Below, one piece after another: positions 36,640-57,648 of a DNA stretch of 64,000 nucleotides. This stretch comes from Urbifossiella limnaea (lineage in GTDB: Bacteria; Planctomycetota; Planctomycetia; Gemmatales; Gemmataceae): the NCBI RefSeq assembly GCF_007747215.1, contig NZ_CP036273.1, positions 7,052,322 to 7,116,321 on the forward strand, in the 5' to 3' direction. Every line of letters starts with the position of its first letter. Position 1 is the first letter of the stretch. The position numbers and the translations under genes are program-made. The notes beneath the pieces are model-generated. The model was not told where the DNA came from. It worked only from the letters and a program-made list of their open reading frames with translations, and searched no databases.

Positions 36640-39600
36640 ATGTCGAACAACCTGCGTGCGTTTCGCACCCGAACCGCCCGTCGGTCGGCCGCGAGTCTGG
36701 CCCTGACCCAGCTCGAAGACCGCTCGACGCCCGCTGCCCTGCCGCTCGCGCCGCAGTTCACCGTCGCCGGGGTCACCGGGTCGGAGGCCGGCCCGCCCGT
36801 CGTCGCCGTGGTCAACCCGGCCGGCGACTTCGTCGCGGCGTGGGAAAGTCTTGAAACCGACGGCAGCGGCGTCGGGGTGTACACCCAGGCGTTCCTGGCG
36901 GACGGGACGCCGGTCGGCACGCCGTCCCTGGCGAACCAGACGACCGCCGGGAACCAGTCCCGCCCGACGATCGCGACGGACGGGAGTGGGCACGTCGTGC
37001 TCGCCTGGCAGAGCGAGTCGGCCGGCGGCGGGGCGTACGACGTGTACTACCGGACCGCGGCCCTCGACACCGGCGGGGCGACACCGGTCTTCACGCTGTC
37101 GTCCACCGAGCTGCCGGCGAACCTGACCACCGCCGGCAGCCAGACCAACCCGGCGGCGGCGATGGACGCGAACGGCGTCATGAGCCTCGTCTGGCAAACC
37201 GACCAGAACCTCGCGACCACCGGCCTCGACATCTACGGCCGGTACGGCACGTACGCGGCCGGCCTGCTCGGTACGGTGGACAGCGAGATCTCGATCGCCA
37301 CCGGCGACCAGCGGAACCCGACGTCGGCGATGGCCGCGACGGGCGTTCCGGCGGCCGGCGACGGGCGAGCCGTCGTCGCCTGGACCGGCCCGGGGCCGAT
37401 CAGCTCCGAGGGTGAGGCGACGAACGTCGTCGTCGGGACCGTCTTCGCGTACAACGCCGCGCTGACCTTGGTCGGCCCGACCGACGCCGCCCACACCGAG
37501 TACCAGCTCACGGCGGCGGCCCAGCACGACCAGGTGAACGCGGCGGTCGCCATGACCCCGGACGGGCGGTTCGTCCTCGTCTGGCAGGCCGAGGGGCAGC
37601 AGGGGAGCGGGTCGGACGTGTTCTCCCGCCGGTTCGACGCGAACGGCGACGGGCTGGACGCCACGAACGTCCTGGTCAACACCGTCACCTCGCAGCCGCA
37701 GCGGGGGCCGGCGGTCGGGATCGACGCCGGCGGGAACTACTTCGTCACCTGGCAGAGCCAGGGGGCGGACAGCAAGAGTTGGGGGATCGTCGGCCGGGCG
37801 TTCCTGGCGGACGGGACCGAGCTCCGGGCCGACTTCATCGTCAACGTGAACGAGCAGGGGCCGCAGACCAGCCCGGCCGTCGCGGTCGGCCCGAACGGGA
37901 ACGCGGTCGCGGTGTGGGCCGGGCCGTTCGTCCCGAGCCACGGCGGGACGGAAGGCGAGGAGGGCGTCGAGGGCGAGGGCGGCCACCAGCCGTCGCTGTT
38001 CGCCCGCCGGTTCGGCGCGACCGGCTCGACCGACGTGGCCCCGGGAATCGGTGCGGTCAACGTGAACGGGCTGGAGTTCCAGTTGGCCGTGGTCGGGGCC
38101 GGCGAGGACGTACCGGCCGCCGCCGCGATCCTGTCAGACGGCACCTACGTCGTCGTGTGGCAGGCGTTCGAGGAGGCCGACGACGCGAGCGGGTTCGGAG
38201 TCTACGGCCAGCGGGTCGCCGCCGACGGCACCCTGATCGGGGCGAAGTTTCTGGTCAACACCACGACGCTCGGCTACCAGAGCCACCCGGCCGTCGCGGC
38301 CTTGCCGGGCAACGGCTTCGTGGTGGTGTGGCAGACCGAGACGCGGACCGCGAACGGCTACGACGTCGTCGGCCGGGTCTTCACCCAGGACGGGGCCGGC
38401 GCCCTCGTTCCGGGGGCCGAGTTCGTGGTGAATGAGGCCACCCTGACCGGACATCAGACCGCCCCGGCGGTCGCCTCGGACGCGGCCGGCAACTTCGTCG
38501 TGGTCTGGCAGTCGGACGCCCAGGACGCGACCGAGGACTTGACCGAGATCTACGGCCGCCGGTTCGCGACGAGCGGCACCACCGCGACCCCGCTCGCGGC
38601 GGAGTTCCGGGTGAACACCGAGACGGCCACGACCCAGTACTCGCCGCAGGTGGCGATGAACGCGGCCGGCCAGTTCGCCGTCGCGTGGGTGAGCGACCAC
38701 AACGTCGTCAACGACCCGACGGACACCGAGAAGAGCGTCTTCGTCCGCTGGTACGGGGCCGACGGGGTGGCCCCGAACCCCGAATTCCTGGCGAACGTGT
38801 ACACCAAGGACGCGCAGGAGCACCCGGCCATCGGGATCGACGCGGCCGGCGACCTCGTGGTTGCCTGGCAGAGCATCAACCAGGCGACCGGCACGGGCGT
38901 GTCGTGGGACGTGTTCGCCCGCCAGTTCCGCCCGGACGGCACCTCCCCGCAGGCCCAGGAGTTCCAGGTCAACGAGACGGTCGCCGCCCCGCAGCGGTTC
39001 CCGGCGGTCGGCGTGGACGGGGCCGGCCGGTTCGCGATCGCCTGGCAGACGATCAACCAGGACGGGTCGAGCTGGGCGGTGTTCCAGCGGCAGTACCGGG
39101 CGGACGGCACCCCGGAGACCGGCGAGCAGGTCGTCAACACGGTGACCAGCGGGCCGCAGATCGAGCCGGTGTACGCCCGCGGGGTGCTCGGGAACTACGA
39201 CCTGTTCTGGTCCGGGACGATGGCCGAACACGTGGACGGGATCGGCGGCCGGGCGTTCGGGATCAACGCCGTCCCGACGGCGCCGAACATGACCGGGCCG
39301 GGCGGCCCGGTCGACGGGAACGAGCGGGCCCCGCTCGTCCTGCCGGTCACGATCGCCGCCGCCGACCTCGACGTGTTCGAGACCCTCTCGGTCGTGATCA
39401 CCGGCGTGCCGGACTACGCCACCCTGTCGGCCGGGGTGAAGCAACCGGACGGGTCGTGGGTCCTCGCGCCGGGCGACCTGGCGGGGCTCACCGTCCAGTT
39501 CTCCCACGAGGGGACCGCGACGCTGACCATCACCGGCGTCGCGACGGAGGACAAGACCGGCCGGGAGGCGACCACGGTTCTGACCGTGCCCATGACCGCC

Positions 39601-40836
39601 GCGAACGTCGACTCGTTCGCGGTCGATGCCGGGTCGGTGGCCGGGATCGAGCGGAAGCTGCTCCCACTCCCGATCGGGATCGTCGAATCGACTCCGGGGA
39701 TCTACGAGGTCCTGTCCGTGGTCGTCGCGGGCCTCCCCGCCGACGCCACGCTCTCCGGCGGGATCCGGCGGACCGACGGGAGCTGGGAACTGACCGCGGC
39801 GCAGCTTCCGGGGCTGACGGTCCGGGCGGCGCGCGAGGGCGCGGCCACCCTCGGAATCACCATCACCGCCCGCGACCGCGACTCCGACCGGCTCGAGATC
39901 CGGACCCGGCTGGTGACCTTCACCGCCGCCAACGTGGACGTCTACGCGGTGGGTGGCGGGGGGAGCGGCCTCGTCCGGCAGTACGGGCTGGACGGGGCGT
40001 TGATCCGCGAGATCGACGCCTTCCCCGGGTTCACCGGCGGCGTCCACGTGGCGACGGGTGACCTGACCGGCGACGGGGTGCCGGACCTGATCGTCGGGGC
40101 CGGCCCGGGCGGCGGGCCGCACGTCAAGGCGTACGACGGGGCGACCGGGGCCCAGGTCCGCAGCTTCTTCGCCTACGACCCGACGTTCCGCGGCGGGGTG
40201 ATCGTGGCCGCGGGGGACCTGGACGGCGACGGCGTCGCGGAGATCGTGACCTCCCCGACCGAGGGCGGCGGCCCGCACATCCGGGCGTTCGACGGGGTCA
40301 CCGGGGCCGAGGTGCGGTCGTTCTTCGCCTACGACTCGAGCCTCCGGAACGGGGCGAGCGTGGCGGTCGGGGACGTGACCGGGGACGGGAAGGCGGACAT
40401 CATCACCGCCCCGCTGGCCGGCGGCGGGCCGCACGTCAAGGTGTTCGACGGGATCACCCAGGCGGTGGTTCAGTCGTTCCAGGCGTTCGAGGAGTCGTTC
40501 CGGGGCGGGGTCTACCTGGCCGTCGGGAACGTGGTCGGGGACGGGCGGATGGACATCATCGCCGGCCCCGGCGACGGCGGCGGGAGCCGGGCCCGAGTGT
40601 TCGACGGGCACGACCTGTCGTCGGTCACCGACGTGTTCGCGTTCGGTGACGCGTCCCGGGCCGGCGTGCGGGTCGGGGCGATCGACCGGGACGGGGACGG
40701 CCGGAGCGAATTGCTGCTCGGGGCCGGCCCGGGCGACGGGCCGGTGGTCAAGATCCTGGAGCCGATCTCCCTCGACGTGCTCGACACCTTCCTGGCGTTC
40801 GACCCGGCCGACCGGAGCGGCGTCTGGGTCGGGTAG
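36640..40836 (+). CDS. Large LEDR-type surface protein with β-repeats and FG-GAP tail
   Basis: A 1398-residue secreted protein. The N-terminus carries LALTQLEDRSTPA (LEDR at 25-28), a motif recurring in large planctomycete exported proteins. Residues ~40-860 hold about 13 repeats of ~50-60 residues of the type GNFVVVWQS...GRRF...ADGT...FRVNT, probably a β-propeller-like array. Two similar ~95-residue domains follow (~885-1080, each with TLSxGxxxxDGSW). The last ~290 residues are five or six FG-GAP-like units with Ca-binding-type loops (DLTGDGVPDL, DLDGDGVAEI, DVTGDGKADI). It ends GVWVG, as does the protein at 49651. Cell-surface adhesion or binding is the likely role. Downstream hairpin at 40851. 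Confidence 0.85.
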   Translation: MSNNLRAFRTRTARRSAASLALTQLEDRSTPAALPLAPQFTVAGVTGSEAGPPVVAVVNPAGDFVAAWESLETDGSGVGVYTQAFLADGTPVGTPSLANQTTAGNQSRPTIATDGSGHVVLAWQSESAGGGAYDVYYRTAALDTGGATPVFTLSSTELPANLTTAGSQTNPAAAMDANGVMSLVWQTDQNLATTGLDIYGRYGTYAAGLLGTVDSEISIATGDQRNPTSAMAATGVPAAGDGRAVVAWTGPGPISSEGEATNVVVGTVFAYNAALTLVGPTDAAHTEYQLTAAAQHDQVNAAVAMTPDGRFVLVWQAEGQQGSGSDVFSRRFDANGDGLDATNVLVNTVTSQPQRGPAVGIDAGGNYFVTWQSQGADSKSWGIVGRAFLADGTELRADFIVNVNEQGPQTSPAVAVGPNGNAVAVWAGPFVPSHGGTEGEEGVEGEGGHQPSLFARRFGATGSTDVAPGIGAVNVNGLEFQLAVVGAGEDVPAAAAILSDGTYVVVWQAFEEADDASGFGVYGQRVAADGTLIGAKFLVNTTTLGYQSHPAVAALPGNGFVVVWQTETRTANGYDVVGRVFTQDGAGALVPGAEFVVNEATLTGHQTAPAVASDAAGNFVVVWQSDAQDATEDLTEIYGRRFATSGTTATPLAAEFRVNTETATTQYSPQVAMNAAGQFAVAWVSDHNVVNDPTDTEKSVFVRWYGADGVAPNPEFLANVYTKDAQEHPAIGIDAAGDLVVAWQSINQATGTGVSWDVFARQFRPDGTSPQAQEFQVNETVAAPQRFPAVGVDGAGRFAIAWQTINQDGSSWAVFQRQYRADGTPETGEQVVNTVTSGPQIEPVYARGVLGNYDLFWSGTMAEHVDGIGGRAFGINAVPTAPNMTGPGGPVDGNERAPLVLPVTIAAADLDVFETLSVVITGVPDYATLSAGVKQPDGSWVLAPGDLAGLTVQFSHEGTATLTITGVATEDKTGREATTVLTVPMTAANVDSFAVDAGSVAGIERKLLPLPIGIVESTPGIYEVLSVVVAGLPADATLSGGIRRTDGSWELTAAQLPGLTVRAAREGAATLGITITARDRDSDRLEIRTRLVTFTAANVDVYAVGGGGSGLVRQYGLDGALIREIDAFPGFTGGVHVATGDLTGDGVPDLIVGAGPGGGPHVKAYDGATGAQVRSFFAYDPTFRGGVIVAAGDLDGDGVAEIVTSPTEGGGPHIRAFDGVTGAEVRSFFAYDSSLRNGASVAVGDVTGDGKADIITAPLAGGGPHVKVFDGITQAVVQSFQAFEESFRGGVYLAVGNVVGDGRMDIIAGPGDGGGSRARVFDGHDLSSVTDVFAFGDASRAGVRVGAIDRDGDGRSELLLGAGPGDGPVVKILEPISLDVLDTFLAFDPADRSGVWVG

Positions 40837-41062: not shown

Positions 41063-42772
41063 CTACGACATGAACCGGCAAGCGAGGCGGTGGCCTCCGG
41101 ACCCGGGCTCGGAGCGAACCACGGCCGCGAGCAGCGCGTTGCCGGCCACCCCCTCGATGCTCCGGAACTCGAGGTACACCTGCCGCCACGTGGCGGCCGC
41201 ACGGGTCAGGATTCGCACGCCCCCCGCGGACACGTCCTCGCTCACCCCGTCCTCCGCCGCCCCGATCGACCCGTCGGCGCCGACCGGGTGGAGGCGGACG
41301 GGGAGCCCCACGGCGTACCGCGGGTGAGCCCGGCGGTCGCGCAGGGTCTCGACCGCCCCGCGGACCGCGGCCAGCACCCCGGGTAGGGCCGCCAGGTACG
41401 TTCGCTGGTCGGCCGCGGTCAGCTCGCCGGCCAGCCCCGCGGTGGCGACCGTCTCGGGGCCCGGCGCGGCCCGCTGGACCAGCACCCACAACTCGCCCGC
41501 GGCCGCGCCGGAGGAGCCCCGCCCGCTCGGCCCGAGCGGCCGGCGCAGGACCGCCCCCGACTCCCACTCCTCCACGGTCATGCCGAACTGTCGGGCCACG
41601 CCGGCCAACTTCGACGGGAGCACCGCCGCCGACGTCGTACACAGGAACCGGCACGACCGCGTCCCGTCCGCCGCCGGCTCGCCCGCGCCGCTCTCGTACC
41701 GGGCAGCCGCAACGACCGCCTCGATAAACTCGGCCGCCGACAGGTCGCCGGCGCGGCCCGGCCGCGGCCGCAGCCGCGGGACGAAGGCCACGACCGGCAG
41801 GTCGGCCGGCGCCGCGGCCGGCGCGCGGGGGGCGACCCGTGTCTCGGCCGGCGCCGGGGTCACCACAGTGCTGACGGGCGCGGTGCGCGTCTCGGCGCCG
41901 AGTTGCAGGTCGGCTACGGTCGTCGGGAACGACAGGACGCCCGACCCCGGGTTCCCACCCCCCGCCGTCGCCACCGCCCGGACGAAGTCGGAGCAACTCG
42001 GGAACCGGTCGGCCGGCTCCTTCGCGAGTGCCCGGCCGACCGCCGCCCGGTCGGTCGCCGGGAGCGCCGTCAGGTCCGGCGCACTGCTCACGTGCTGGAG
42101 CATCAACTGCTGGGCGGTCCGCCCGGGGTAGGGGAACGCCCCCGTGAGTAGCTCGTAGTAGACGAGCGCGAGGCTGTACTGGTCGGACCGCGCGTCGGCG
42201 CTGCCCCGGAGGACCTCGGGGGCGGCGTACTTCGGAGTCAGCCCGGCCTCGGTCGGGCCGGCACCCAGCGCCCGGACGAGGCCGTAGTCGCCGACCTTGA
42301 CGTGCCCGTCGATGAGGAACAGGTTGGCCGGCTTCACGTCGAGGTGCTGGAGCCCGTACCGGGCCGCGATCACGTCGAGGGCTTCGGCGGCGTCCGCGAG
42401 GTAGCGCAGCAGTTCGTCCCGCGGGATGCCGCACCGGCCCCGGCGGCGGCACTCGTCGAACCGGTCCTGGAGCTGGGCGTCGGCCAGCTCCATCACCATG
42501 ACGAGGTCGCCGCCGATGAGCTCGACCCGCTCCAGCGACAGGAGGAAGGCGTGGCGGAGCGCCCGGACGCGCTCGAACGCGGCCGCCTCCTGACGGAGTT
42601 GGTCGCCGCCGCCGGGGACGAACTTGACGGCCTTGTGGAGCCCCCCGGGGGCGACGCACTTCCACACCTCCCCGAACCCGCCCCGGCCGAGCGGCTCGAC
42701 GAGGACGTACCCGGGGACCGGCTCGTCGCCGGCCTGGCGGTTGGCGGACACGGACGGGTCGATGGCTGGCAC
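41063..42772 (-). CDS. Ser/Thr protein kinase fused to a PilZ domain
   Basis: A 569-residue cytoplasmic kinase without membrane helix. The kinase domain (~20-265) has GRGGFG, K50 in AVKFV, HLD at 143-145 instead of HRD, DYG at 162-164 instead of DFG, and APE at 184-186. Catalytic Lys and both Asp are kept, so activity is likely. A Pro/Ala-rich linker and an unassigned middle domain (~340-460) follow. The last ~95 residues are a PilZ domain with RAHPR (RxxxR) and DVSAGG (DxSxxG), the two motifs that bind c-di-GMP. The protein may be a c-di-GMP-controlled kinase. It is convergent with the surface gene at 36640, not next to a sigma gene. Confidence 0.88.
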   Translation of the reverse strand: MPAIDPSVSANRQAGDEPVPGYVLVEPLGRGGFGEVWKCVAPGGLHKAVKFVPGGGDQLRQEAAAFERVRALRHAFLLSLERVELIGGDLVMVMELADAQLQDRFDECRRRGRCGIPRDELLRYLADAAEALDVIAARYGLQHLDVKPANLFLIDGHVKVGDYGLVRALGAGPTEAGLTPKYAAPEVLRGSADARSDQYSLALVYYELLTGAFPYPGRTAQQLMLQHVSSAPDLTALPATDRAAVGRALAKEPADRFPSCSDFVRAVATAGGGNPGSGVLSFPTTVADLQLGAETRTAPVSTVVTPAPAETRVAPRAPAAAPADLPVVAFVPRLRPRPGRAGDLSAAEFIEAVVAAARYESGAGEPAADGTRSCRFLCTTSAAVLPSKLAGVARQFGMTVEEWESGAVLRRPLGPSGRGSSGAAAGELWVLVQRAAPGPETVATAGLAGELTAADQRTYLAALPGVLAAVRGAVETLRDRRAHPRYAVGLPVRLHPVGADGSIGAAEDGVSEDVSAGGVRILTRAAATWRQVYLEFRSIEGVAGNALLAAVVRSEPGSGGHRLACRFMS

Positions 42773-43147: not shown

Positions 43148-44167
43148 ATGCCGATGCCGCCCGCCCCGCCGTCCCCGGCTGCGTTCTTCGACCTCGCCAA
43201 CGCCTACCAGCGGACCGAGGCGCTGAAGGCGGCGGTGGAACTCGACCTGTTCACCCACGTCGCCGCCGGCCGCACCGCGACCGCCGACCTCGCCGCGGCG
43301 ACCGGCGCGTCCCCGCGCGGCGTCCGCATCCTGGCCGACTACCTGACCGTCGTCGGGCTTCTGCACAAGTCGGCCGACCGCTACGCCCTCACCCCCGACG
43401 CCGACGCCTTCCTGAACCGCGCCTCCCCCGCCTACCTCGGCGGGGCGCTCGAGTTCCTCCTCACGCCCCAGCTGCGCGAGTGCTTCCAGTCCCTCACGGC
43501 GGCCGTCCGCAAGGGCGGGACGGCGACCTCCGCCGAGGGGACGGTGTCGCACGACAACCCGGTGTGGGTGGCGTTCGCCCGGGCGATGGCCCCGATGATG
43601 AGCCTCCCGGCGCGGATCCTCGCCGACCTGGTCGGCGACGGCGAAGAGACCCGGCTGCGCGTGCTCGACGTGGCCGCCGGGCACGGGCTGTTCGGGATCG
43701 CCGTCGCCCGCCGCTGCCCGGCCGCCCGCGTCACGGCGCTGGACTGGCCGAACGTGCTGGTGGTGGCGGCCGAGAACGCCGCGCGGGAGGGCGTGGCCGA
43801 CCGGGTGGCGTTGCTCCCGGGGAGCGCGTTCGAGTTGGACTGGGGCGGGCCGTACGACGTGGTCCTGCTGACGAACTTCCTCCACCACTTCGACCTGCCG
43901 ACGTGCGAGCGGCTGGCGGCAAAGGCCCACGCGGCCCTCGCCCCGGGCGGCCGGGCCGTTACGCTGGAGTTCGTCCCGGAGCCGGACCGGGTGACGCCGC
44001 CGGCGACGGCCGCGTTCGCCCTGACGATGCTCGCCACGACCGCGGCCGGCGACGCGTACACGTTCGCCGAGTACGAGCGGGTGTTCGCCGCGGCCGGGTT
44101 CGTGCGGAGCGTGTTCCAGCCCCTCCCGCCGACCACCCAGCAGGCGGTCGTGTCCTACCGGGATTGA
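43148..44167 (+). CDS. SAM-dependent O-methyltransferase (Methyltransf_2 type)
   Basis: A 339-residue two-domain methyltransferase. The N-terminal ~100 residues form the winged-helix dimerisation domain (AAFFDLANAYQRTEALKAAV, LDLFTHVAAG, GVRILADYLTVVGLL). The catalytic domain has LDVAAGHGLFGIAVAR (SAM site) at ~176-191, TALDWPNVL for the ribose, and NFLHHFDLPTCERLAAKAHA. This pattern is shared by O-methyltransferases of phenolic or polyketide substrates and by many bacterial homologues of unknown substrate. ATG 43148 is followed closely by a second Met at residue 3. Monocistronic, between kinase genes; nothing links it functionally to them. Confidence 0.88.
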   Translation: MPMPPAPPSPAAFFDLANAYQRTEALKAAVELDLFTHVAAGRTATADLAAATGASPRGVRILADYLTVVGLLHKSADRYALTPDADAFLNRASPAYLGGALEFLLTPQLRECFQSLTAAVRKGGTATSAEGTVSHDNPVWVAFARAMAPMMSLPARILADLVGDGEETRLRVLDVAAGHGLFGIAVARRCPAARVTALDWPNVLVVAAENAAREGVADRVALLPGSAFELDWGGPYDVVLLTNFLHHFDLPTCERLAAKAHAALAPGGRAVTLEFVPEPDRVTPPATAAFALTMLATTAAGDAYTFAEYERVFAAAGFVRSVFQPLPPTTQQAVVSYRD

Positions 44168-44382: not shown

Positions 44383-44997
44383 ATGTCTCCATCACCGGAG
44401 TCCGCCGTTTCGGGGCTGGCTGCCGCACGGGCCGGAGACACGGCCGCCCTCGGCCGACTCCTGGAATCGTACCGGAGCTATCTTCTCCTCCTCGCCAGAA
44501 TCCAAATCGGCCGACGACTCCAGAGCAAAGCCGACCCGGCCGACGTCGTGCAGGACACCTTCCTCGACGCCCACCGGCAATTCCCGGCGTTCCGGGGGGA
44601 GACGGCCGACGCACTCGCCGCCTGGCTCCGTCGCGTCCTTGCCGGCCAGCTCGCCCACCTGGTTCGCCGGTACTTCGGGACGGAGGCCCGGGACGTCCGG
44701 CTGGAACAATCCATCGAGCAGGAGCTGGACTCGTCCTCGCAGTCGATCGCCCGCGGGCTGTCGCACCCGGGCACGTCGCCGAGCGAGTCCGCCGCCCGAC
44801 GGGAAGATCTGGCCCGGCTCGGCGACGCCCTCGAGCGGCTTACCCCGGACTACCGCGACGTGATCCTCCTTCGCCAGCTCGAAGGGCTGCCGTTCGCCGA
44901 GGTGGCCCGGCGGATGGGGCGGACCGAGGACGCCGTCCAGAAACTCTGGGTCCGCGGGCTGGTCGCCCTCCGACGCGCCCTCGACGGCAGCCCCTGA
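44383..44997 (+). CDS. ECF-type RNA polymerase sigma factor
   Basis: A 204-residue planctomycete ECF sigma factor. Region 2 includes LLLLARIQIGRRLQSKADPA and DVVQDTFLDAHRQFPAFRG; region 4 is at ~150-195 (LTPDYRDVILLRQLEGLPFA, EVARRMGRTEDAVQKLWVRG). The pattern resembles the TIGR02984 planctomycete-specific group. It lies 65 bases before the kinase-WD40 gene in the same direction, so the two are probably co-transcribed. No anti-sigma gene is nearby. The linked membrane kinase is the likely regulator. Confidence 0.92.
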   Translation: MSPSPESAVSGLAAARAGDTAALGRLLESYRSYLLLLARIQIGRRLQSKADPADVVQDTFLDAHRQFPAFRGETADALAAWLRRVLAGQLAHLVRRYFGTEARDVRLEQSIEQELDSSSQSIARGLSHPGTSPSESAARREDLARLGDALERLTPDYRDVILLRQLEGLPFAEVARRMGRTEDAVQKLWVRGLVALRRALDGSP

Positions 44998-45062
44998 CCG
45001 GTGGCGGATTCCGCCGGCCGGCGGAACTACTGGTGGTGTCACGGCTCGACGCCTGGTGCCCG

Positions 45063-48000
45063 ATGCCCGACCCGACCCCCGACCCCGAATCGGCCGCGGC
45101 CGCCGTCGTGGCCGCGTTCCAGGCCGAGTACGACGCCGGCCGGCGGCCGGACCGGGCCGCGTACCTCGCCCGCCACCCGCACCTCGCGGGCGTGCTCGAC
45201 GACTGCCTGCGGGCGGTCGAGTTCGTCCACGGGGCGGTCCACGGCCCGCCCCCGGCCGCGGTCGGCTCCGGGGCCGTGCTCGGCGACTTCCGGCTCGGGC
45301 GGGAACTCGGCCGGGGCGGGATGGGGGTGGTGTTCGAGGCCGAGCAGGTGTCGCTCGGCCGGCGGGTGGCGGTGAAGGTGCTCCTGGCGGCGACCGGGCT
45401 CGACGACCGGGCGCGGCGGCGGTTCCGGCACGAGGCGATGGCGGCCGCCGCCCTCCACCACCCGCACATCGTTCCGGTGTACGCGGTCGGGGAGGCGGCC
45501 GGCGTCCCATTCCTGGCGATGCATCTGGTGGACGGCCGCTCGCTCGCCGACGTGGTCGCCGGGCTGCGGGCCGGGGCCGCCACCCCGGCCGCCACCACCG
45601 CCCCGCCGGCCGCCGACACGGCCCCGCCCGCCACCCCGGCGCCGGGCCGCCCGTTCGCCGCCCCGGCCGGCACCCCCGCGTACTACCGCGAGGTCGCCCG
45701 ACTGGTCGCCCAGGCGGCCGACGCCCTCCACCACGCCCACGAGTGCGGCATCGTCCACCGCGACGTGAAGCCCGGGAACCTGCTCCTCGACGCCGCCGGC
45801 GGCGTGTGGGTGGCCGACTTCGGGCTCGCCAAGCTCCCGGGCAGTGACCTGACCGGCACCGCCGACCTGATGGGCACCGTCCGGTACATGAGCCCCGAAC
45901 AGGCGGGCGGGCGGGCGGTCGCACTCGACGCCCGCGCGGACGTGTACTCGCTCGGGGTCACGCTGTACGAGCTCCTCACCCTGGAGCCGGCGTTCGCGGC
46001 CGACGACCGCCGGGCGCTGCTGCGGAAGGTGCTGGAGGAGGAGCCGCCGCCGCCGCGGACGCGGGCCGCCGGGCTCCCGCCCGAACTGGAGACGATCACC
46101 CTCACGGCGATGGCGAAGGAGCCGGCCGAGCGGTACCAGACGGCCGCGGCGTTCGCCGCCGACCTGCGGCTGTTCCTGGCCGACCGGCCGATCACCGCCC
46201 GCCCCCCGACCCCGCTCGACCGCGGGCGTAAGTGGGTGCGGCGGAACCGGCCGCTCGTGGTGACGACGACCGCGGCGGCCGTGCTCGGGCTGGCCGCGAC
46301 GGTCGGGGTGCTGCTGGCGAGCAACGCGGCGATCGAGGCCCGGCGGGGCGAGACCGAGGCGGCGCTCGGCCGGGAGACCGCGGCGTTGGGGAAGGAGACC
46401 GACGCCCGCCGCGCCGCCGACGCCGCCCTCGCCGCCGAACAGGCCGCACGGACGGCCGCCCAGCGGACCGTCACGTTGCACACCGTCGCGCACGCCTTCC
46501 GGGAGTGGCAGGTGGGGAACCTCGGCCGGGCCGCCGCGCTCCTGGCCGACTGCCCGCCCGAACACCGCCGCTGGGATTGGTATCACCTCGACCACCTCGC
46601 CCGGGCGGACGACGGCCGGGTCCCGGGGCTCAGCGGGTTCGAGGTCCGCGGGTTCGGGTTCGACCCCGCCGGCCGGCTCGTCGTCGCCGACACCCGCGGG
46701 CTGTCCCGCTTCACGGACTCCGACCCCGCCGTCGTGCCGGTGCGGGTGCCGGCGAACCGGGCCGAGATCGGCCCCGGTGGCACGGTCGCCTTCTACCAGT
46801 TGCATGCGCAGCCGGGCAAGGGCCGCGACGGGTTCACCCTGCACGACGTGGACACCCTGGCCGAGAGGGTCCGGTTCGCCGGCCACACCGGCGGGACCGA
46901 GGCGGTCGCGTTCGACCCGTCCGGCCGGTGGGTCGTGTCCGGGGGGCGGGACAAGGCGGTCCGGCTGTGGGACGCGGCCACCGCCGCTCCGACGGCGACG
47001 ATGACCGGGCACGCGAAGATGGTAAGCCAGGTGGCGTTCCACCCGACCCGGCCGGTCGTCGCCTCGGTCGCCGCGGACGGCACGCTCCGGCTGTGGGCGG
47101 CGGACACCGGCAAGAGCCTCCGCGTGATCCGGGACGACGGCTTCCGCGTGGCCGGCGGGGAGGTGTCGGTCCACCAGCTCCGCGGCCTCGCCTTCCGCCC
47201 GGACGGCCGGCTCGTTGCCGCCGGTCTGGCCGACGGCACGGTCAAGTTCTGGGACACCGACACCGGGGAACTCCGGCTTCAAGTCGCCGCCCACCCCGGC
47301 CCGGTGACGGCCGTCGCGTTCAGCCCGGACGGGCGGTGGGTGGCGACGACCGGGATTCACGACAAGGTGATCCGGGTGTGGGACGCGGACTCGGGGCGGC
47401 CGGTCCGCGCGCTCCGCGGGCACGACCGGGTGCCGGAGGTCGTCGCCTTCGACCCGACCGGGCGGGCGCTCGTCTCGGCCAGCACCGACACGCCCAGCGC
47501 CGTCCGGGCGTGGGACTTGACCACCGCCCCGGAGGCCCGGCCCGTCGGCCGCCAGACGGTGATGGCGGCGAGCCCGACCGGGCTCCCGCCGAACGCCGCC
47601 GCCCGGTTCGACCCCACCGGCGACCGGCTGCTCGTGACGGCCGGGACCGGACTGAGCCTGTGGAACCCGGCGACCGGCGAGCGGCTCGGGGCCGGGGCCG
47701 CCAGGCCGGAGCCGACGAAGTCGATCGGCCGGTACGTCCTCGGGGCCGGTTTCGCGCCGGACGGCGGGGAGGTGGTGCTCGTGACTCCGACCGGCGGGTG
47801 CCGGTGGGCGGCGAGCGACCGCAACCCACGGGAGGCGTTCCCGTTCGTGTCCGTCCAGGGTCGGGGTGCCGCCGGCGTACCCGCCCCGACAATCCCCGAC
47901 CCGCGGCAGACCTTCAGCGCCCCGTTCACCGGGCAGGCGTCGTTCGCTCGCGACGGCTCCCGTTTCGCCGCCATCGACTGGACCGGCACCGCCCGGCTAT

Positions 48001-49313
48001 ACGACGCGGCCGGCACCGCGCTCGCCGAGTTCAAGAGCCCCACCGCGCTGACCCAGTTCGTGACCCTCGCCCCGGGCGGCACCTGGGTGGCGACGGCGGA
48101 CGTGAAGAAGGTGGTCGGGGTGTGGGACGCGGCCGGCGGCAAGCGGTGGGAGCGGGCGTTCCCGACCCAGGTGATCGTGGCCGCGATCGACCCGGCCGGC
48201 GGGCGGCTCGCCGTGAGCACGACCGACGGCGTGGTCGGGCTGTACGACGCCGCCGATGGCCGCCCGCTGCGGGCGCTCCAGGGGGCGGGGCAGTGGGTGC
48301 GGAGTCTGGCGTTCAGCCCGGACGGCGAGCGGGTGGTCGGCGGGCTCGGGGACGAGGACGCCCGGGCCGTCGGGCTGCGGGTGTGGGACGCCGACACCGG
48401 GCTCGAACTGTTCACCGTCCCGCTCCCGGCGGCGGCCGTCGGGCTCGACTTCCACCCGTCCGGCCGGTCGCTGGCGGTGGTGTCGCGGACCGGCCGGGTG
48501 TGGGTGCTCGACGGCGGGCCGCCCGCCCCCGCGGTCGCGGCCGAGGCCCGGCGGCGGCGGCTCGAGTTCTGGCACGACCTGCACGCCACCGAGGCCCAGG
48601 CCGAGGGCCGGCTCGGGGCCGCGCTGTGGCACGTCGGGAAGATGCTGGCCGAGAACCCCGGCGACGTCGAGCTCCAGGCCCGCCGCGGCGACCTGATCGC
48701 CAAGACCGGCCGGCTCGACGACCTCACCCCCGCCGAGGCGGCGGCGCTGGCCGGGCGGGCGAAGGCGGACGACTTCGCGGTCGCGTTCCCCCTCGCCGCC
48801 CGGCTCCTCCGCGACGGCGACCGCGCCTCGTACCGCCGGCTCTGCGACCGCGTCACCGCCCCGGTCGGCGGGCGGGTGCTCGGCCCGCTCACGGCGGCCC
48901 ACGTCTACCGGCGGTCGCTCGCCTGCCGGCTCGCACTGATGGCCCCCGGCGGGTGCGACCCGGCGGCCATGACGAAGCTCGTCGAAACCGCCATCCCGGC
49001 CGAGCTGAACCCGTTCGCCCAATTCTGGCTGCGGGGCATGGCCCGCTACCGGGCGGGCGACGACGCCGGGGCGGTCCGCGACCTGACCGAGGCCGCGCGG
49101 CACGACCCGACCGCCCCGTCGCACGCCGTCGCCGACCTGTTCCTGGCGATGGCCCACCACCGGCTCGGGGACGCGGCGACGGCCCGCCGGTGCCTCGCCC
49201 GGGCGGACGAGCGGCACCGGGCGACCGGCGCGAACCGCCCGCCGGACGACCCGGTGACGATCGTATTCGCTACCGTCCGTCGGGAGGCGGCGGAGGTGCT
49301 CGGCGTGCCGTGA
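45063..49313 (+). CDS. Membrane Ser/Thr kinase with WD40 propeller and TPR-like tail
   Basis: A 1416-residue kinase. The kinase domain (~74-375) has GRGGMG (83-88), K105, HRD 232-234 and DFG 252-254. It is unusual in carrying an Ala/Pro-rich insert at ~166-204 between the N-lobe hinge and the catalytic loop. A membrane helix lies at ~398-419, a coiled coil at ~423-470, about 14 WD40-like units at ~520-1155 (for example DKAVRLWDAATAAP, DGTLRLWAAD, DGTVKFWDTD), and a helical TPR-like tail. The propeller and tail would be extracytoplasmic. Starts after the ECF sigma gene and precedes the surface gene at 49651. ATG 45063 chosen over a longer frame without coding character. Confidence 0.92.
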   Translation: MPDPTPDPESAAAAVVAAFQAEYDAGRRPDRAAYLARHPHLAGVLDDCLRAVEFVHGAVHGPPPAAVGSGAVLGDFRLGRELGRGGMGVVFEAEQVSLGRRVAVKVLLAATGLDDRARRRFRHEAMAAAALHHPHIVPVYAVGEAAGVPFLAMHLVDGRSLADVVAGLRAGAATPAATTAPPAADTAPPATPAPGRPFAAPAGTPAYYREVARLVAQAADALHHAHECGIVHRDVKPGNLLLDAAGGVWVADFGLAKLPGSDLTGTADLMGTVRYMSPEQAGGRAVALDARADVYSLGVTLYELLTLEPAFAADDRRALLRKVLEEEPPPPRTRAAGLPPELETITLTAMAKEPAERYQTAAAFAADLRLFLADRPITARPPTPLDRGRKWVRRNRPLVVTTTAAAVLGLAATVGVLLASNAAIEARRGETEAALGRETAALGKETDARRAADAALAAEQAARTAAQRTVTLHTVAHAFREWQVGNLGRAAALLADCPPEHRRWDWYHLDHLARADDGRVPGLSGFEVRGFGFDPAGRLVVADTRGLSRFTDSDPAVVPVRVPANRAEIGPGGTVAFYQLHAQPGKGRDGFTLHDVDTLAERVRFAGHTGGTEAVAFDPSGRWVVSGGRDKAVRLWDAATAAPTATMTGHAKMVSQVAFHPTRPVVASVAADGTLRLWAADTGKSLRVIRDDGFRVAGGEVSVHQLRGLAFRPDGRLVAAGLADGTVKFWDTDTGELRLQVAAHPGPVTAVAFSPDGRWVATTGIHDKVIRVWDADSGRPVRALRGHDRVPEVVAFDPTGRALVSASTDTPSAVRAWDLTTAPEARPVGRQTVMAASPTGLPPNAAARFDPTGDRLLVTAGTGLSLWNPATGERLGAGAARPEPTKSIGRYVLGAGFAPDGGEVVLVTPTGGCRWAASDRNPREAFPFVSVQGRGAAGVPAPTIPDPRQTFSAPFTGQASFARDGSRFAAIDWTGTARLYDAAGTALAEFKSPTALTQFVTLAPGGTWVATADVKKVVGVWDAAGGKRWERAFPTQVIVAAIDPAGGRLAVSTTDGVVGLYDAADGRPLRALQGAGQWVRSLAFSPDGERVVGGLGDEDARAVGLRVWDADTGLELFTVPLPAAAVGLDFHPSGRSLAVVSRTGRVWVLDGGPPAPAVAAEARRRRLEFWHDLHATEAQAEGRLGAALWHVGKMLAENPGDVELQARRGDLIAKTGRLDDLTPAEAAALAGRAKADDFAVAFPLAARLLRDGDRASYRRLCDRVTAPVGGRVLGPLTAAHVYRRSLACRLALMAPGGCDPAAMTKLVETAIPAELNPFAQFWLRGMARYRAGDDAGAVRDLTEAARHDPTAPSHAVADLFLAMAHHRLGDAATARRCLARADERHRATGANRPPDDPVTIVFATVRREAAEVLGVP

Positions 49314-53406: not shown

Positions 53407-56400
53407 TCACGGCTTGGCGGCGAAGGCGGCCTGTGCTTCGGACAGGTAGAACGCGGTCTGCTGGTGCCGCTGGTCGCCGCGCTGGTAGGCGCGCACGCGC
53501 GGGAGGATGCGGTCGAACTCGGCCGCGGCCCCGGGCTCGCCGAGCCGGTGCATGCACACCGGCACGTACAACGCGGCGTACACCCAGAACGAGTGCCCGG
53601 ACGTGCGCCGGGCGGTCGCGCCCAGTACCGCCAGCGCCCCCAGATGGTCGCCGGTGCGGTACAGCGCGAGCCCGTGGGCGAACTGGGAGACGTTGTCCCA
53701 CCCGCGCCCCGCGGAGTTCCGTCTCGTCAGCCGGACGACGTGGTCGTCGGCGCACCACGCCGCCGGACGGGTGAGCAGGTAGATCGGGAGATCGGTGCTG
53801 TACCCCGGCGAGCCGGGCGCCGTCGCGGCGGACTCGTCGGCGGCCGCTTCCGCCACCCGCCCGAGCGCCCGCAGACTCAACACCCGGCAGTTCCGCGCCC
53901 ACGGGTCGCGCGGGTGGGCCGCCAACTCCGCGGTGAACGCGGCGACCGCCTCCTGGTGCCGGCCGGTGTTCTGAAGCGCCTGCCCGAGGTGGAAGCTGGC
54001 CCCGGTCGTCCGCGGGGCCAGTCGCAGCGCCGCCCGCGCCGACGCCTCCGCGTCGGTCCACCGCTCCAGCGCCACCGCGGCCCGTGCGCGGGCCGCCCAC
54101 GCCGCCGCGTTGTCCGGCGTCTGCACCACGGCCAACGTGGCGCGGGCGAACGCGTCGCCGCACCGGTAGTTGGTCCGCTCGGCGAAGCGGGCGTTCGCGG
54201 CCGGGTCGAACGGGTTCCCGAGGAGGGTCAGCGCGTCCCGCTCGAACTGCGCTGCCTCCCACGCCTTGTCGTTCGCCATCTCTACCCCGACGACCTCGAC
54301 CCGGTCCGGCGGGGCGTCGTCGGGCGGGAGCGGTGGGGCGTCCCAGTCGAGCCCGAGTGCGGCAAGCTCGGACCGGATGAGCCGCAGGTTCCAGGTGCGG
54401 AGCCCCTTGTTCGCCCGGGCGTGGCTCACCAACTCGCCGCCGCCTGCGGTGAAGTGGAGGCCGCGGTTGAAGAACGTCGCCTCGCCCAGCGGCGCGTCCA
54501 GCCGCGCGAGCACGTCGCCCGTCGGGTACGCGCGCAGGGTGATCGTGCCCGACACCTCCTCCGCCGCCATCACGGTGCCGGTGGGGTCGAACGCCACCGC
54601 CGCCGGCTGCGTCGCCCCGGTGCGGTCGATCGTCTTCACCACGGCCCACGTCGCCGTGTCGCGGAACGTCAGCCCGTCGCCGCGCGAGGTGACGAGGTGC
54701 TTGCCGTCGGGCGCGAAGACCACGGCCGTCATGTCGCCGGTTTCGAGCCGCCGGACGCGCGTGCCGGTGTCGGTCGCCCACACGTCCACGAAGCGGTCGA
54801 ACCACGTCGTCTCGGCCATCAGCCGGCCGTCCGGCGACAGCGCAACATACCCACTCGACGCGACGTGCCCCGTCGCGGCCGGGGGGCGCCGCCCGCTCGG
54901 GTCCGCGAACGCGGCGCCCCGCCCGTCGGCCCGGCGGATCAACCGCCCGTCCGGGTGGTAGCCGACGAAATCGACCCCCCGGCCGCGCTGGTCGAGCCGG
55001 TCCGGCGGGCCGATCCGCAGCACGCCGCCGGCCTGTGCCACCGGCCAGCGCCACCAGTACCCGGCTTCCGACGCGGCGACGAGTTCCCGCCCGTCGGCCG
55101 CCCACTCCACCGTCGTGTTCTCCGGCGCCCCCGGGCCGACGGTGGCGAGCCAGCGCGCCGCGCGGCGGTCGAAGACGTGGAGGCCGGTGGGGGTGTGTTC
55201 GAGGATCAGGTGCCCGTCCGGGTCCACCGACGCGGCCGGGAACCCGCCGGCCCGGTCGGCGCGGAGGCGGTGGTACTCGGCCGGGCGGACGAGTTCGAGC
55301 ACTCGCACCGTCCGCGGGCCGGGCTGGTACCCGAAGTAGCGGCCGTCGCGGCTGAACCGCGGGTGCCCGACCTGGGCCGGCAGCAGCAGGTACGGGATGC
55401 CGTTGAGGCCGTCGAACACGCGCGACGTGTTGTCGTAGGAGAACGTGACGAGGAACTCGCCCGTCGGGTCGTAGCTCAGCGACGCGACGGTCGTGCCGTG
55501 GCCGTGGTACAGGCAGATCGGGTGGCCGAGGTCCACGTCCCGCAGTTGCGGGTAGTCGTTCCCGCCGCCGTTGAGTCCGAGCCAGCGGTTGTGCGGGTGC
55601 GGGTGCCACGCCAGAGCGTGCGGCCAGTTCGACTTCCCGTCCACCCTCAAGTTCACGAACCGGGCCGGGTCCGCCGTCTGGAAGACGTGGACGTAGTTGA
55701 CGCCGTCGCCCCACACCGCCGCCCGCGTCCCGTCCCACGACAGCGCCGCGGCCAGCACCGGCCCGCCGACCGCCACCCGGCGCAGCTCGCGCGCGTCCGG
55801 CAGCGCCAGCAGCCGCGCCGTCCCGTCCCGGCAGCCGACCAGCAGCGTCGTCCCGTCCTTCGCGACGTCCACCGCGTCGCCCCGCGTGACGCCGGCGACC
55901 CGGCCGGTGACCGCCCCGGTGTGGGTGTCGAGGACCAGCAGTTCGTTGTTCGCGGCGAGGACGGTGAGGTGCCTGCCGTCGGGGGTGAAGCGGATGCCGC
56001 CGAGCGCGCCGTTCGGCACTCCCCCCTTCATCGGCACCGCGAGCCGGCGGACGAGCCGCCCGTCGGTCGTGGCGTGGAGCCGTAGCCCGTCCGGCTCGGG
56101 CACTGCGACGGTCTCGTAGTCGGCGTCGAACGCGAGCCGCCCCTGCTCGACCTCGAGCTCGGGCGGGACTGTCGGAACCACGCCGTCGGGGCCGGTGCGA
56201 ACGTCGCACAGGGCGAGCGCGGCGATCACCTCGTCGCGGAGCGCGGCGCGCTCGGCGGCGGTGGCGCCGCGGCGGCGGGCGAGTTCGGCGGCCTGCTTGA
56301 GTGCCTCTAGCGCCCGTAGCCGTTGTCCGGCCCGGCCGCTCACTCGCGCCGCCTTCGCCTCGGCGAGCAGCGCCGCTTTCAGCCGGTCCTCTGCCTCGCC

Positions 56401-57648
56401 CTCGGCGAGTTCCGCGCGCTGCTGGCTCGCGCGGAACTGGACTGCCGCGACGGCCGACCCGACCGCCACCGCCACGAGGGCCGCGACCGCGCCGCCGACG
56501 AGGGCCGCCGGCCGCGGGTTCCGCCGGCACCACCGCGCCAGCCGCCCGGCCGGGCCGACCGGGCGGGCGACGGTCGGGTGGCCGGCGAGGAAGCGGTCGA
56601 GGTCGTCGGCCAGCGCGGCGGCCGACGGGTAGCGTGCGGCCGCGTCCTTCTCCAGGCACTTGAGCGCGACGGTTTCGAGGTCGGCGGGAACGGCGGGTTG
56701 CAGCGCCCGGACCGGCACCGGGGCGGCGCGGCGGACGAGGTCGAGGGTGTCGAGGGCGGTGGCGCCGCGGAACGGCGGGCGGCCGGTCAGGCACTCGTAC
56801 AGGATGGCGCCGAGCGCGTACACGTCGGCGGCGGGCGTGGCCGGGCGGCCGGCGGCCTGCTCGGGGGCCATGTAGTTCGGCGTGCCGAGGACCGAGCCGG
56901 TCGTGGTCGGCCCGGCGGCGGCGTCGGCGAGCTTGGCGAGGCCGAAGTCGGCCACCTTCGGGACGGCGCCCGGCCAGAGGAGCACGTTCGCCGGCTTCAG
57001 GTCGCGGTGGAGGACGCCGCGCTCGTGGGCGTGCGCCGCGCCGCGCGCCAGGTCGCGGGCGAGGCGGGCGGCGTCGCGCGCGGGGAGCGGGCCGGCGGCG
57101 AGGAGCCGGTCGAGCCCGCCGTCCGGCGCGAACTCCAGCGCGAAGAACGGGCGGCCGTCGTGCTCCCCGAACTCGTGGACCCGGACGATGTGCGGGTGGT
57201 CGAGCCGGGCCACGATCTCGGCCTCGGCCAGGAACCGGGTCCGGGCGTCCGCCCCCGCGTGGTCCCCGGCCAGGATCATCTTCAGGGCCACGACGCGGCT
57301 CAGCGACACCTGCCGCGCCCGGTACACGACGCCCATCCCGCCGCGCCCGATCTCGTCCAGGATCTCGAACCCGGGAACGTGCGGCAGTTCGCCGCTCCCC
57401 GCCGCGGACGCGGCCGGGGTGACGCCCCCGCCCGGCGGCACCGTGCCCCCCGCCATCACTGCCGAGCGGAGCGGTCGCAGGGCGGCGAGCATGGCGAGCA
57501 GGCCGCGGAGGTCCCCGGCCCGGCCCGGGCGGCGCGCGACGTACTCCTCGACCGCCGGGCACTCGCCGCGGTTCAGCCGGTCGGTGAACTCGTCCACCAG
57601 TTCGTAGAGGTCGTCCTCGGCGGTGGTACTCATGGGCGTTGTCGTCAT
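53407..57648 (-). CDS. Membrane Ser/Thr kinase with WD40-type C-terminal domain
   Basis: A 1413-residue kinase. The kinase domain (~94-355) has GRGGMG (101-106), K123, HRD 214-216 and DFG 234-236. A membrane helix is at ~380-402, followed by a coiled coil. The ~1000-residue C-terminal part contains WD40-like blades (GTVASLSYDPTGEFLVTFS, GVDFVGYHPDGRLIRR, SSGYVALSPDGRLMAETTW) and a helical TPR-like end (~1190-1413). A second Met at residue 6 (MSTTAEDDLYELVDEF) is an alternative start. It lies 71 bases after the ECF sigma gene in the same direction and ends 165 bases from the convergent surface gene at 49651. Confidence 0.92.
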   Translation of the reverse strand: MTTTPMSTTAEDDLYELVDEFTDRLNRGECPAVEEYVARRPGRAGDLRGLLAMLAALRPLRSAVMAGGTVPPGGGVTPAASAAGSGELPHVPGFEILDEIGRGGMGVVYRARQVSLSRVVALKMILAGDHAGADARTRFLAEAEIVARLDHPHIVRVHEFGEHDGRPFFALEFAPDGGLDRLLAAGPLPARDAARLARDLARGAAHAHERGVLHRDLKPANVLLWPGAVPKVADFGLAKLADAAAGPTTTGSVLGTPNYMAPEQAAGRPATPAADVYALGAILYECLTGRPPFRGATALDTLDLVRRAAPVPVRALQPAVPADLETVALKCLEKDAAARYPSAAALADDLDRFLAGHPTVARPVGPAGRLARWCRRNPRPAALVGGAVAALVAVAVGSAVAAVQFRASQQRAELAEGEAEDRLKAALLAEAKAARVSGRAGQRLRALEALKQAAELARRRGATAAERAALRDEVIAALALCDVRTGPDGVVPTVPPELEVEQGRLAFDADYETVAVPEPDGLRLHATTDGRLVRRLAVPMKGGVPNGALGGIRFTPDGRHLTVLAANNELLVLDTHTGAVTGRVAGVTRGDAVDVAKDGTTLLVGCRDGTARLLALPDARELRRVAVGGPVLAAALSWDGTRAAVWGDGVNYVHVFQTADPARFVNLRVDGKSNWPHALAWHPHPHNRWLGLNGGGNDYPQLRDVDLGHPICLYHGHGTTVASLSYDPTGEFLVTFSYDNTSRVFDGLNGIPYLLLPAQVGHPRFSRDGRYFGYQPGPRTVRVLELVRPAEYHRLRADRAGGFPAASVDPDGHLILEHTPTGLHVFDRRAARWLATVGPGAPENTTVEWAADGRELVAASEAGYWWRWPVAQAGGVLRIGPPDRLDQRGRGVDFVGYHPDGRLIRRADGRGAAFADPSGRRPPAATGHVASSGYVALSPDGRLMAETTWFDRFVDVWATDTGTRVRRLETGDMTAVVFAPDGKHLVTSRGDGLTFRDTATWAVVKTIDRTGATQPAAVAFDPTGTVMAAEEVSGTITLRAYPTGDVLARLDAPLGEATFFNRGLHFTAGGGELVSHARANKGLRTWNLRLIRSELAALGLDWDAPPLPPDDAPPDRVEVVGVEMANDKAWEAAQFERDALTLLGNPFDPAANARFAERTNYRCGDAFARATLAVVQTPDNAAAWAARARAAVALERWTDAEASARAALRLAPRTTGASFHLGQALQNTGRHQEAVAAFTAELAAHPRDPWARNCRVLSLRALGRVAEAAADESAATAPGSPGYSTDLPIYLLTRPAAWCADDHVVRLTRRNSAGRGWDNVSQFAHGLALYRTGDHLGALAVLGATARRTSGHSFWVYAALYVPVCMHRLGEPGAAAEFDRILPRVRAYQRGDQRHQQTAFYLSEAQAAFAAKP

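Follow-up and report, generated by a model that had tools for sequence, protein, structure and literature searches.

Pkn1 (MXAN_1467) of Myxococcus xanthus, a protein needed for development, joins a Ser/Thr kinase to a PilZ domain that is reported to lack the motifs for cyclic diguanylate (c-di-GMP), and whose binding was not studied (PMC8316039, PMC8844925). Within our partial coverage of the open-access literature it is the only studied kinase-PilZ protein found; because that coverage is partial, the architecture is likely to have been mentioned before, in domain databases for instance. One survey of planctomycete kinases and the domains attached to them (PMC11032199) already reported tubulin-like domains on such kinases; its main text does not contain the term PilZ. 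Here we describe a kinase-PilZ protein encoded in a 64,000-nucleotide stretch of the Urbifossiella limnaea genome (contig NZ_CP036273.1, positions 7,052,322 to 7,116,321; hereafter the window). Judged by its sequence, it is probably a soluble, catalytically competent Ser/Thr kinase with its activity set by c-di-GMP. The open reading frame (ORF) at 41063-42772 on the minus strand has a GTG start and a 569-aa product, laid out as follows.

41063..42772, minus strand: whole gene, kinase-linker-middle domain-PilZ (ORF and translation, Pfam, 12-member alignment)
41954..42709, minus strand: Hanks-type kinase domain, residues 22-273 (Pfam, PDB relatives, catalytic residues)
42338..42346, minus strand: catalytic-loop HLD, residues 143-145, without the Arg-Asp (RD) pair
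42281..42289, minus strand: DYG motif, residues 162-164 (motif comparison among relatives)
41774..41953, minus strand: Pro/Ala-rich linker, residues 274-333 (predicted local distance difference test (pLDDT) score <50 at 273-323; length varies in relatives)
41339..41737, minus strand: undescribed middle domain, residues ~346-478, core 367-478, beta-alpha-beta4-alpha (AlphaFold2 model, no Pfam family)
41066..41338, minus strand: PilZ domain, residues 479-569 (Pfam, whole-genome PilZ search, 4i86 profile match)
41318..41335, minus strand: first c-di-GMP motif, RRAHPR, residues 480-485
41219..41236, minus strand: second c-di-GMP motif, DVSAGG, residues 513-518

The PilZ domain exceeds its Pfam cut-off (residues 479-568, E 1e-5, 26.3 bits versus 22.5), contains both RxxxR and [DN]xSxxG, and gives a weak profile match (E 0.044) to the PilZ domain in the solved structure of a cellulose synthase chain (4i86), an alignment that brings both motifs into register. 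Among 35 distinct single-kinase relatives, R480, R481, R485, S515 and G518 are present in all and D513 in 34 (one D to E); PilZ identity among the same members averages 40% and falls to 16% in the lowest pair, and the motif residues rank among the most conserved columns. Strong conservation of every motif residue thus supports c-di-GMP as the predicted ligand. A chance PilZ-like tail was rejected on the Pfam score and on motif conservation across the 35 sequences. An earlier note on this DNA had read a C-terminal PilZ with intact RxxxR and DxSxxG, which are found here as RRAHPR and DVSAGG; it had also called for a domain search, in which Pkinase and PilZ both pass their Pfam cut-offs.

The kinase domain is complete by every residue we considered. 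Pfam Pkinase matches residues 22-230 (E 1.9e-27, over the cut-off), the PDB relatives are PknA/PknB, and K50, E62, D145, N150, D162, APE, D197 and R256 are all in place, giving the Lys, alphaC Glu, HxDxxxxN, DxG, APE, alphaF Asp and Arg of a Hanks-type kinase. HLD stands at 143-145 where an RD kinase has HRD, with Arg before the catalytic Asp. The possibility that HLD and DYG mark a dead kinase was rejected because all catalytic residues are kept. The earlier note had numbered K50, HLD and DYG correctly and had rightly stated that the loop variants keep the essential Asp residues (D145, D162). Both motifs it picked out are present, but HLD does not set this protein apart: the whole kinase clade has it, including kinase-tubulin-like paralogs. 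DYG, by comparison, comes close to a subclade marker: all single-kinase PilZ members except three carry it, and the tubulin-type paralogs have DFG.

The architecture belongs to a real family. A first alignment of 12 relatives was extended by genome scans to dozens more, mostly from metagenome-assembled genomes (MAGs) and also from Gemmata sp. IIL30 and Limnoglobus roseus, so that kinase-middle-PilZ proteins recur in dozens of contigs of Gemmataceae, which also supply the nearest named relatives. Several genomes carry two or three copies of the window family, with catalytic residues strictly kept. In a tree of 135 kinase domains, the window protein falls in a clade of 38 rows (Shimodaira-Hasegawa-like approximate likelihood ratio test (SH-aLRT) support 99). 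That clade contains 33 of the 35 single-kinase PilZ members; its other rows are four double-kinase proteins that have PilZ or the middle domain, and one truncated contig end. RD kinases with PilZ form a separate, distant clade (support 92); PilZ has therefore joined kinases at least twice. At two loci (L030:5501-11756 and L032:238-4105), HLD and unrelated HRD kinase-PilZ genes lie within ~3 kb of each other, once divergently. One contig assigned to a Bacteroidales MAG encodes kinases of Gemmataceae type that belong to the tubulin-kinase clade; a binning error is the probable cause.

Relatives with altered kinase domains retain the C-terminal half. In double-kinase proteins the catalytic Asp is missing from the second kinase domain (for example HLGLNPRx, HLALNPRT), as often is the Lys, whereas the first domain keeps both. 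We listed 13 kinase-pseudokinase-middle-PilZ loci, with the second-domain Asp gone where checked; in one of them PilZ was not seen, the ORF running to the contig end. Pseudokinase-middle-PilZ proteins without an active kinase exist in Gemmatales; six loci encoding such proteins were listed. The middle domain and PilZ stay together as a module in both versions. At L158:152-2499, two overlapping ORFs in different reading frames together make up a double-kinase PilZ gene, the break being probably due to a frameshift or assembly error.

The middle domain, at residues ~346-478 between kinase and PilZ, had no place in the earlier note's account. AlphaFold2, given a 47-row alignment, modelled it with a mean pLDDT of 86 as a beta-alpha-beta4-alpha fold after a leading helix. 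Assignment to a known Pfam or NCBIfam family was tried and found no candidate for the segment: 47 + 13 members gave no convincing Pfam family and no match to the KA1 sequence profile at E <= 1. A PDB sequence search returned chance-level matches only, and Foldseek nothing below E 0.001 (best BamC, 1.2e-3). The modelled beta-alpha-beta4-alpha order and the position on the C-terminal side of a kinase are also those of KA1 domains in AMPK-related kinases of eukaryotes (SAD, Chk1, AMPK alpha, CIPK/SOS2), but identity is 3-12% and none of the 47 members matches Pfam KA1. In VIA-align, KA1 chains reach Z 6-8 against the model: 4yom 7.8 (97 aligned, 3.6 Å), 5iri 7.7, 2zfd 7.1 (91, 3.5 Å), 5wi2 6.7 (88, 3.8 Å) and 2v8q 6.7 (95, 4.0 Å). 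Other folds of the TATA-box-binding-protein (TBP)-like type score equal or higher, among them the spermine synthase N-domain (Z 8.7), the phosphoglucomutase C-domain (8.6) and the adaptin appendage (8.2). The modelled fold thus resembles KA1 among other TBP-like folds, and the scores do not single KA1 out; we do not declare homology, because unrelated TBP-like folds score equally in VIA-align and Foldseek is without a match below 0.001.

When 248 genomes of the class Planctomycetia were searched by profile and the matches inspected, the middle domain turned up in four settings: (a) ahead of PilZ, in proteins that have a kinase, a kinase-pseudokinase pair or a pseudokinase alone; (b) as the last domain of RD kinases that have no PilZ, including two encoded in the window's genome (positions 2285072 and 4150776); (c) as the tail of HD-GYP-PAS-GGDEF proteins from other families of the class; and (d) as short stand-alone ORFs. 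The HD-GYP (HD)-PAS-GGDEF proteins of setting (c) are ~720-820 aa long and were seen at ten loci; three ORFs of 137-163 aa consist almost solely of the domain (L167:790-1200, L168:819-1307, L169:603-1013). Profile-profile comparison of set (a) with sets (b + c) gave 98.5% at E 3.5e-15. Because sets (b + c) had been found with the profile of set (a), a separate check used a profile built only from c-di-GMP-enzyme tails and stand-alone ORFs. This profile matched RD kinases at the expected place (best 9e-10), and did so too in pseudokinase-PilZ proteins (1e-7) and in some of the kinase-PilZ proteins (1e-4), against 2.2 for the best of 800 shuffled sequences; it reached the window's own subclade only through intermediates. 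Across the phylum (246 genomes), matches occurred only within the window's own class. By profile, then, this unnamed, widespread domain is one that Planctomycetia have on kinases, on PilZ receptors and on c-di-GMP enzymes.

A PilZ search of the window's genome, a single contig of 7.8 Mb, recovered five such domains, four of them on Ser/Thr kinases of two separate lineages. One of these is the window kinase, two are its same-family paralogs (positions 7014147 and 288397), and one is an RD kinase of 437 aa (position 4122041; Pkinase E 3e-55, PilZ E 1e-8); the fifth PilZ has no kinase, and N replaces D in its second motif. By their domains, three GGDEF proteins and one EAL protein of this genome could make and break c-di-GMP; of the GGDEF proteins, one is FHA-GGDEF, one is REC-GGDEF, and the N-terminal half of the third is hydrophobic and membrane-like. 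Of the 19 Gemmataceae genomes searched, 15 have FHA-GGDEF proteins. FHA domains read phosphothreonine, so feedback from kinase to c-di-GMP is conceivable. In a same-genus genome, an FHA-GGDEF gene (contig C332, 55-1448) is followed directly by a PilZ match.

Direct switching of the kinase by c-di-GMP is plausible on these sequence features, and any mechanism has to include the third, middle domain. Binding of c-di-GMP, the switch, its direction and its substrates are points on which we infer. In our proposal the C-terminal half, middle domain plus PilZ, would form a regulatory module, with c-di-GMP held by the RRxxxR loop and DxSxxG. In known PilZ proteins the RxxxR loop closes around the ligand and shifts the domain that precedes PilZ. 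Here the RRxxxR loop is predicted to sit at the joint between the last middle-domain helix and the PilZ barrel: in the ligand-free full-length model, residues 479-481 have pLDDT <50 directly after middle-domain helix 453-474. Ordering of the loop would turn the middle domain relative to PilZ and so change its contact with the kinase, by which inhibition may be released or imposed, or the protein relocated. A non-RD kinase is probably independent of activation-loop phosphorylation through the usual RD pocket, and the tail would therefore be the main switch. Several points weigh against this proposal. The full-length model has a predicted template modelling (pTM) score of 0.49, and domain arrangement and contacts are not predicted; the receptor count for the genome covers the PilZ class only; the protein could answer to another dinucleotide, or its PilZ could only localise it; and a motif-bearing PilZ may fail to bind, as does PlpA of M. 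xanthus (PMC8316039).

Other readings of the same module divide the labour differently. PilZ and the middle domain might be a targeting device, by which c-di-GMP or a membrane recruits a constitutively active kinase with its catalysis unchanged. The middle domain does occur without PilZ, both on HD-GYP-PAS-GGDEF enzymes and by itself, which is what one would expect of a localisation or interaction domain, and its fold resembles that of KA1 domains, which bind membranes in eukaryotes. Lipid binding by the middle domain is purely putative, however, and the invariant ligand residues tell only that a ligand matters; we think targeting possible, though unlikely. The wiring might also run in the opposite sense, with the kinase domain or autophosphorylation controlling ligand or partner binding by the middle-PilZ module as the real output. 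Such an arrangement would suit the pseudokinase-middle-PilZ proteins, in which phosphotransfer is not expected yet both PilZ motifs persist; it is improbable for the window family, which strictly keeps its catalytic residues and has two or three copies in several genomes, as for an active enzyme.

Least probable is a degenerate or structural PilZ with no binding of c-di-GMP, the prediction made for Pkn1 of Myxococcus: the PilZ of that protein is without the motifs (PMC8316039, PMC8844925), whereas all motif residues are kept here while the rest of the domain diverges. A wider scheme, which we put forward as doubtful, would make the middle domain a new planctomycete KA1-like signalling domain at both ends of a circuit, on HD-GYP-PAS-GGDEF proteins as makers or breakers of c-di-GMP and on kinases and kinase-PilZ proteins, where it might serve as a shared autoinhibitory or membrane element; in this genus, FHA-GGDEF proteins would read phosphorylation back and close a loop between c-di-GMP and Ser/Thr phosphorylation. 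Control of kinase activity by c-di-GMP remains the reading we prefer.

The kinase-PilZ gene stands by itself; its neighbours are a convergent FG-GAP protein gene (36640-40836, plus strand; 1398-aa product with FG-GAP repeats) and a divergent O-methyltransferase gene (43148-44167, plus strand). We considered an operon with the FG-GAP gene but dropped the idea, the two genes being convergent in the window and tandem in another genome of the same genus. A promoter and terminator scan returned nothing. In a plasmid search, the matches listed covered the kinase domain only, at coverage <=58%, with no record covering 80% of the query. Elsewhere in the window, an ECF (extracytoplasmic function) sigma factor gene (44383-44997, plus strand) precedes a gene for a Ser/Thr kinase with WD40 repeats (45003-49313, plus strand), and a second WD40 kinase is encoded at 53407-57648 (minus strand).

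The kinase-PilZ fusion is not new in kind; the variant here has intact motifs and an undescribed middle domain. Its family pairs intact c-di-GMP motifs with active-looking kinases in several copies per genome, and exposes the unnamed domain that kinases, PilZ receptors and c-di-GMP enzymes have in common in Planctomycetia. It is a candidate direct wire from c-di-GMP to eukaryote-style protein phosphorylation, a question that one purified protein makes testable. Like the window protein, Pkn1 has an N-terminal Ser/Thr kinase and a C-terminal PilZ in one chain (PMC8316039); compared by its published description only, it differs in that the window kinase is non-RD with intact PilZ motifs. Apart from the PilZ clades, the kinase domains nearest to that of the window protein include those of Gemmataceae kinase-tubulin-like proteins (~1200 aa), at ~50-59% identity and with HLD and APGG.xKA.KFV, but these proteins carry DFG, and a tubulin-like C-terminal region (GGTGGG) replaces the middle domain and PilZ. 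In YcgR-type receptors, too, PilZ follows another domain, and the RxxxR loop that connects the two moves on ligand binding; in the window protein the upstream domain is instead alpha/beta, and a kinase is added.
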